Of a stretch of 64,000 nt of DNA, positions 29,755-38,354 are shown in pieces. The stretch spans positions 1,881,001 to 1,945,000 of the forward strand of contig NZ_CP090975.1 in assembly GCF_021513215.1 (NCBI RefSeq), written 5' to 3'. Source of the DNA: Suttonella sp. R2A3 (GTDB lineage Bacteria; Pseudomonadota; Gammaproteobacteria; Cardiobacteriales; Cardiobacteriaceae). A model generated the notes under the pieces. That model saw only the letters and a list, made by a program, of their open reading frames with translations. It was not told where the DNA came from and made no database searches. The position numbers were made by a program, and so were the translations under genes. Position 1 is the stretch's first letter; the number at the start of each line of letters is the position of its first letter.

Positions 29755-29849
29755 ATCTAACCTCGTTATCGTTTAAAAACTTAAGGTCATTATAACGAAC
29801 TAGGGCGCTAGAAGGGGGTGAAAGGTGATTAAATGTCGTGGATTTGGGC

Positions 29850-29876
29850 AAAAAAAAGCCGGGTTGGAAACCCGGC
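29850..29876 (-). terminator. Intrinsic terminator of candidate small RNA
   Basis: Perfect 8-base arms GCCGGGTT / AACCCGGC with 3-base loop; read on the minus strand it is followed by eight T residues (29850-29857). It lies upstream of fumC and its likely -10 box, so it does not end any protein gene. Confidence 0.88.
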
Positions 29877-29923
29877 CAATAACCACCAAAGGAGGATATA
29901 GAGGAGATAACATCGATGATGTC
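29850..29923 (-). ncRNA. Candidate anti-Shine-Dalgarno small RNA upstream of fumC
   Basis: Predicted RNA of about 74 nt on the minus strand. It has a near-consensus promoter (29931-29959), a likely 5' end near 29923, a short hairpin (GACATC / GATGTT, loop ATC, 29909-29923), and an unpaired C/U-rich stretch with UCUCCUC and UCCUCCUUU. It ends in a perfect 8-bp terminator stem with eight U residues. This is the build of an Hfq-type small RNA that blocks ribosome binding sites. Neisseria sibling RNAs with C/U-rich anti-SD loops repress TCA-cycle and uptake mRNAs in this way. No long ORF on either strand explains the sequence. Existence and targets are inferred, not shown. Confidence 0.7.
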
Positions 29924-29930
29924 GATTTTT

Positions 29931-29959
29931 ATTATAGGGATAATGTTGCGTTGCGTCAA
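29931..29959 (-). promoter_or_regulatory. Strong sigma70 promoter of candidate small RNA
   Basis: On the minus strand TTGACG (29954-29959) and TATAAT (29931-29936) are separated by exactly 17 bases: 11 of 12 consensus positions. A/T-rich sequence upstream could act as an UP element. It is the best promoter match noticed in the window. Confidence 0.8.
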
Positions 29960-30058: not shown

Positions 30059-30081
30059 TTTATGCTGCGTTGCAGCATAAA
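30059..30081. promoter_or_regulatory. 10-bp perfect palindrome (operator-like)
   Basis: Arms TTTATGCTGC / GCAGCATAAA with a 3-base centre GTT, in the 278-base gap between the small RNA promoter and the hydroxyacid dehydrogenase gene. No T-run follows on either strand. It looks like a regulator binding site, though an RNA hairpin is possible. The rest of this gap is AT-rich, with a TATGAT at 30141-30146 that may be a -10 box. Confidence 0.5.

Positions 30082-37349: not shown

Positions 37350-38354
<1,005 letters not shown>

Follow-up and report, generated by a model that had tools for sequence, protein, structure and literature searches.

What does the short stretch of DNA upstream of fumC in Suttonella sp. 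R2A3 encode, and what controls its expression? A sequence-only reading of the locus had placed an unannotated small RNA (sRNA) gene there, composed of a promoter, a 5' hairpin, a C/U-rich stretch and a terminator, and this layout was confirmed on the minus strand of the window (the whole 64-kb stretch of DNA analysed). That reading had overlooked two sites (29944-29958 and 30063-30077) like those of PhaR, a PHB-responsive repressor that regulates the metabolism of plastic (PHB) granules. The features of the locus are as follows:

29850..29923, minus strand: predicted sRNA of ~74 nt (-10 box used to place the start, T run the end)
29954..29959, minus strand: -35 box TTGACG (sequence and consensus scan)
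29931..29936, minus strand: -10 box TATAAT (sequence and consensus scan)
29909..29923, minus strand: 5' hairpin GACAUC-AUC-GAUGUU (fold, and 10 distinct paired forms among 29 loci)
29883..29907, minus strand: conserved core with two anti-Shine-Dalgarno stretches and GGUGG (conservation)
29907-29901, minus strand: UCUCCUC, first anti-Shine-Dalgarno stretch
29896-29888, minus strand: UCCUCCUUU, second anti-Shine-Dalgarno stretch
29887-29883, minus strand: GGUGG of the core
29857..29877, minus strand: terminator hairpin GCCGGGUU-UCC-AACCCGGC (fold, consensus scan and per-sequence stems)
29850..29857, minus strand: terminator U tract of 8 T (sequence)
29944..29958, minus strand: O2, PhaR-like site TGACGCAACGCAACA over the -35 box and spacer (matrix score 9.3, just below the 9.58 threshold)
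30063..30077, no strand: O1, perfect palindrome TGCTGCAACGCAGCA, PhaR-like operator (matrix score 15.7)

The promoter (TTGACG, a 17-nt spacer and TATAAT) matches the consensus at 11 of 12 positions. The predicted RNA folds at -21.8 kcal/mol (z = -3.69), a stability equalled by none of 200 shuffles, with UCUCCUC left largely unpaired and the second CU stretch held within a weak hairpin; its U-rich terminator tail is the sole Hfq-related feature noted in the sequence. The consensus scan gave 2 promoter-like sites (1.4 expected) and 1 terminator-like site (0.6 expected), which is not above chance, so that the scan alone is insufficient and it is conservation that raises the sRNA call above chance.

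Conservation was searched in 57 genomes, counting matches at E < 1e-7, and 29 genomes matched. The core TCTCCTCYATATCCTCCTTTGGTGG was found in 29 of the 32 Cardiobacteriales genomes searched: in all 12 of the same family (Cardiobacteriaceae, including Cardiobacterium hominis and C. valvarum) and in 17 of 18 from the order's second family (the Wohlfahrtiimonas and Ignatzschineria group), with no match at that E-value in two other families, each represented by one genome. Every one of the 29 loci, one per genome, carries TCTCCTC[TC]ATATCCTCCTTTGGTGG, and the 25-nt core is invariant save for one C/T position. The promoter, the anti-Shine-Dalgarno motifs and the terminator are conserved in the relatives, as the sequence-only reading would have it, and the hairpin and terminator show compensating changes. 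The arms of the 5' hairpin vary jointly (ACAUC/GAUGU, ACGUUUGA/UCAGACGU, ACGCUUGA/UCGAGCGU, ACAUCUAG/CUAGAUGU), as do those of the terminator (GCCGGGTT/AACCCGGC, GCCGGTTT/AAACCGGC, GCCGGCTC/GAGCCGGT), where many different stems keep their pairing. Covariation was taken from per-sequence stems because the alignment behind covariance model R1 misplaced the terminator pairs, which the model therefore missed; the stem finder in turn put the terminator of L024 and L028 in the wrong place, and its count of 20 "distinct" terminator arms includes some that differ in length alone. The window genome has a single copy. Judged from these sequence comparisons, the sRNA gene is real and conserved.

The same loci bear on whether the locus could instead be a short coding gene. 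An ATG at 29914-29912 opens a frame across the core, and this ATG and the subsequent core codons are identical in the 12 family loci. The ATG, however, is part of an arm of the 5' hairpin, has no visible Shine-Dalgarno sequence upstream, and is missing from many second-family and Chromatiales loci in which the core nucleotides are still kept; a coding function is extremely improbable.

The regulator had also been tied to fumC. The adjacency is true in this genome, where fumC lies on the same strand and starts ~95 nt beyond the predicted sRNA end, an arrangement that would suit a fumC leader or attenuator whose terminator governs read-through into the gene. It means little, however, since fumC adjoins the sRNA in only 1 of 29 genomes (flanks of ~1.5 kb on each side, less at contig ends) and the core is kept in 29/29; FumC, searched by tblastn against 31 loci, matched solely the own-genome locus (present in the set as two copies). 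A conserved position before fumC, as a leader would have, was thus not found, and between the terminator and the gene the minus strand has another TATAAT (29789-29794), a possible fumC -10 box. We consider a fumC attenuator very unlikely. Nor is fumC a standout target of the RNA: pairing with its start region (-12.9 kcal/mol) differs little from the median for the 50 window genes compared (-11.65 kcal/mol), and this candidate was rejected.

With a free-standing sRNA gene as the preferred reading, its kinship was sought in Rfam. A scan of the whole window returned no family at its cut-off; the lowest sub-cut-off E-values at the sRNA belonged to RF02423 (27.7 bits, E = 3.1e-5, cut-off 80), RF02278 (34.3 bits, E = 3.4e-5, gathering cut-off 50) and RF02784 SorX (25.3 bits, E = 6.5e-4, cut-off 46.6). 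The RF02278 match runs end to end (model positions 1-64) and preserves the element order of CU stretch, CU hairpin and terminator; at 34.3 bits against a cut-off of 50, the sRNA is a related branch and not a formal member. In an RF02278 scan of 20 loci, the 19 core-bearing loci scored 27.8-35.8 bits and the one without the core (L031) gave no match.

A wider survey of the class with a model of the core plus terminator (E <= 0.001) found a related RNA in 52 of 369 genomes, 3 of them from the same family; the GTDB class sampled also contains betaproteobacteria. The pattern CTCCTCYAN{0,2}TCCTCCTTTGGTGG was matched by at least 119 stretches from named genomes, and among the matches listed the core spacing is mostly N0 in Chromatiales and Thiotrichales, N2 = TA in Cardiobacteriales and N2 = CC in Burkholderiales. 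All 18 CC-type loci chosen reach the RF02278 cut-off (58.7-73.2 bits); nearly all are titled Burkholderiales, L158 being titled only as a betaproteobacterium and L190 having no title shown. The same cut-off is reached by 0/20 class-sample loci and 0/19 core-bearing loci of the order, so the sRNA is a diverged relative of the NcS27-containing group, and it marks a group that current Rfam cut-offs miss. Its nearest kin are the RF02278 RNAs of betaproteobacteria, called double-hairpin or "toxic" sRNAs (for example NcS27; also Bordetella S17), and it appears to belong to an old proteobacterial group of anti-Shine-Dalgarno sRNAs present in many gamma- and betaproteobacteria. Conservation and these published relatives together support the original proposal of an unannotated sRNA with C/U-rich anti-Shine-Dalgarno stretches. 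Among the loci surveyed, L178 carries the related core three times in a row, G388 has five model matches, and L063, from a class genome, has a tandem glycine riboswitch (1189-1372) close to its sRNA.

The sequence-only reading had looked to Neisseria for the parallel. NmsRA and NmsRB are of a C/U-rich anti-Shine-Dalgarno design, which the window sRNA shares, and homology with them would explain the likeness. The NmsRb family (RF02877), however, scores only 19.4 bits against a gathering cut-off of 52 (E = 1.4), which is no significant sequence kinship, and RF02278 is far stronger; no NmsRA family stands in the same Rfam listing. Descent from a common NmsR ancestor is accordingly left unsupported, and we give it very little credence.

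The new element lies in the promoter region. O1 lies 119 bp upstream of the promoter-overlapping site O2, and nine of the 12 Cardiobacteriaceae have two such sites: TGACGCN3GCARCA, which overlaps the -35 box at the same position in all nine, and, 100-121 bp upstream of it, an exact TGYTGCN3GCARCA palindrome. Both sites are absent from the three genomes of genus g4 (two of them Cardiobacterium) and from all 17 second-family loci; the -35 box reads TTGACG in the nine palindrome genomes and TTGACA in the three without it. By eye, O1 differs at 2 positions from the Ralstonia eutropha PhaR consensus YTKNTGCRNYGCANMAR (available text of PMC12849132), and the central three bases, unconstrained in the pattern, read R-N-Y in 17 of 18 operator sites, as they do in that consensus. 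Sites of this kind also occur within genes: the exact pattern has two matches in the genome, O1 and one inside an ORF; two 17-mers within window genes score above O1 with the Sinorhizobium meliloti matrix; one-mismatch sites are many among the matches listed, which reach ~1.09 Mb; and of eight operator-like places examined, one is O1 and the other seven, of which six match exactly and one has a mismatch, fall within stop-to-stop ORFs. One 15-mer recurs on contig G000:C1 of this genome near 897136, 905362 and 913588, in steps of 8226 bases that suggest three tandem copies of an 8.2-kb repeat.

The genome encodes one 141-aa protein with both PhaR domains (PF07879, 1.3e-21; PF05233, 6.5e-8). Of the nine palindrome-bearing family genomes, eight have PF07879, the exception (G008) being 72% complete; the domain was found in 0/3 Cardiobacteriaceae without the palindrome and 0/18 second-family genomes. 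One genome from another family of the order (G014) has PhaR and no detected sRNA. The comparison was extended to the 57 relatives, to 49 class genomes and to L092-L191, which make up 100 of the 119 named stretches, using a matrix built from 11 published S. meliloti PhaR sites (PMC12542648 Table 3, rows flagged for efficient binding), with the threshold at the 99% shuffle level (9.58); the scan left out L171, L180, L221, L226, L229 and L233, which had no pattern match, and loci with <60 nt upstream. Operator regions numbered 47/86 in PhaR genomes against 4/92 in the others before deduplication, and 45/79 against 4/81 among the 160 loci left after genomes were merged solely by identical promoter-core sequence (Fisher 1.2e-13). 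Twelve column-permuted matrices matched 0-5 of the 160 loci each, and the matrix applied to other 210-nt windows of the same loci matched 14/607 and 6/597.

This association is not phylogenetically independent, and clustering by upstream sequence corrects for that in part: 73 clusters divided as 17 with operator and PhaR, 3 with operator only, 17 with PhaR only and 36 with neither (p = 6e-5), and 28 clusters divided as 9, 1, 4 and 14 (p = 1e-3), the loosest cut being uninformative with all loci in one cluster. The four operator loci in genomes without detected PhaR belong to G008, G235 (86% complete), G436 and G452, and G403 (locus L096) was counted as PhaR-positive on a 29-aa fragment at a contig end. 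In PhaR genomes 34 of 79 loci have no operator, so PhaR control is lineage-dependent and many lineages must regulate the sRNA otherwise. At L097, L113, L128, L112 and others a different, shared promoter block (TTGACA, then AAGAAACT or ATTAGAA) replaces the PhaR-like operator, pointing to another regulator.

Could the operator be real and yet be bound by another transcription factor co-inherited with PhaR? PF07879 was the sole regulator family compared, and the assignment to PhaR is itself a prediction; the matrix, however, derives solely from S. meliloti PhaR sites, its permuted forms fail on the same loci, and O1 stands within two mismatches of the R. eutropha consensus. We regard a different factor as improbable. 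Scarcely more probable, and still unlikely, is a PhaR that activates the sRNA, or that loops O1 to O2: PhaR can activate, as at phaP3 in R. eutropha (PMC12849132, available text), and O1 sits at a distance upstream of O2, but O2 overlaps the -35 box, and PhaR sites near promoter boxes accompany repression at mmgR and at R. eutropha phaP1 in the published accounts available.

Under the favoured scheme of repression, PhaR at the predicted O2, helped by O1, would block RNA polymerase, and the sRNA would be transcribed when PhaR leaves the DNA. The sRNA, probably with Hfq, would then pair UCUCCUC and UCCUCC to ribosome-binding sites in a group of mRNAs and lower their translation, the candidates being transport and amino-acid-metabolism genes. 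Overall, we think it probable that the locus encodes a free-standing trans-acting sRNA, predicted to be under PhaR control, that occludes ribosome-binding sites.

Candidate targets were sought in 399 crudely called gene starts (the window and 20 stretches of 20 kb). Five starts have a perfect complement of at least 10 nt, against a control mean of 1.2, and none of 200 controls reached five; at 9 nt there are 7 starts against 4.3 in controls, a number equalled by 32 of 200, so the excess is weak and threshold-dependent. The five, to be taken as leads, would be a heme-type ABC ATPase (just below the model cut-off), a sulfur-transport protein, a DctP TRAP binding protein, an MBL-fold protein and an aspartate aminotransferase. 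A dctP-type TRAP solute-binding protein gene lies in the window itself (37374-38354), its start region AAAGGAGATAACCATG containing a 10-nt perfect complement to the 5' CU region of the sRNA. A near-full complement of the core (<=3 mismatches) occurs in the genome only at the sRNA itself.

In PHB-making bacteria the signal for such a circuit would be the growing PHB granule titrating PhaR. The Suttonella genome gave no match to either of two synthase models, PF07167 and TIGR01836, at E up to 0.001, so that by this two-model search the PHB-making host of an MmgR-like circuit was not found. Within Cardiobacteriaceae only G007 has a synthase match; 7 of the 8 PhaR-bearing family genomes have none, two of which are incomplete (G002, 86%; G010, 78%). 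The mirror image of the window genome, PF07167 without PhaR, is seen in G038 and G053. A broader idea, which we put forward tentatively and hold to be rather less than an even prospect, is that PhaR with an anti-Shine-Dalgarno sRNA forms an old module across alpha- (MmgR), beta- (RF02278 type) and gammaproteobacteria, and that in Cardiobacteriaceae that lost PHB synthesis PhaR survives mainly for sRNA control and senses something besides PHB granules. Genomes with PhaR and no detected PHB synthase make the granule-free sensing and role of PhaR a testable question.

Three published systems offer comparison, each as described in the available text of the papers cited. In Burkholderia cenocepacia, ncS03, ncS05, ncS27 and ncS62 are RF02278 RNAs, a family with three to five copies in Burkholderia; overexpression of NcS27 attenuates growth, and blocking of ribosome-binding sites was predicted (PMC5688073). 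The window sRNA has the same parts in the same order (UCUCCUC, then a weak GGUGG-closed hairpin holding UCCUCC, then the terminator), but it is 2 nt shorter between the CU stretches in alignments of relatives, has an extra 5' hairpin that the RF02278 model lacks, and is present in one copy. An upstream motif common to three Burkholderia copies (PMC5688073 Fig. S3) may be the same operator.

S17 of Bordetella pertussis, noted by its authors as homologous to RF02278 RNAs, has a 67-nt short form that pairs through single-stranded sites with ribosome-binding regions, in many cases those of transport genes; among genes raised in its absence, complementary sites close to the ribosome-binding site occur in 70, transport being prominent, and repression of one target was shown to act via the annealing site in its ribosome-binding region (PMC11722255). 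S17 co-precipitates with Hfq, is made by RNase E from a 190-nt precursor and is raised by BvgA (PMC11722255). Here, unlike at S17, to which the sRNA is likened by published description, a promoter with a PhaR-like operator stands directly before the short RNA.

MmgR of S. meliloti is repressed by PhaR (AniA), which binds its promoter (PMC12542648, PMC8401924), as shown by gel shift (PMC12542648), and tunes PHB by lowering phasins (PMC12542648, PMC8401924, PMC9049629). The window locus would resemble this circuit in its sRNA with a predicted PhaR-type operator in the promoter, where by sequence O1 exceeds the matrix threshold and O2 falls just short of it, and phaR is present in its genome. It differs in that sequence similarity to MmgR (RF00519) is insignificant (18.3 bits, E = 0.28, gathering cut-off 41) and in that no PHB synthase was found in the window genome by PF07167 or TIGR01836. 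Since PhaR represses MmgR, the type of circuit is already known in alphaproteobacteria. Work on RF02278-type RNAs has dealt with growth inhibition and carbon use, BvgA, for S17, being the sole controller named in the available text; no link of PhaR to RF02278, NcS27 or S17 was found in the portions of the open-licence literature searched, and PhaR is absent from the main text of PMC5688073 and PMC4603805. What appears to be new is the predicted presence of a PhaR circuit in gamma- and betaproteobacteria, at an sRNA family other than that of MmgR; the operator, if true, would tie many RF02278-type RNAs to carbon-storage status.
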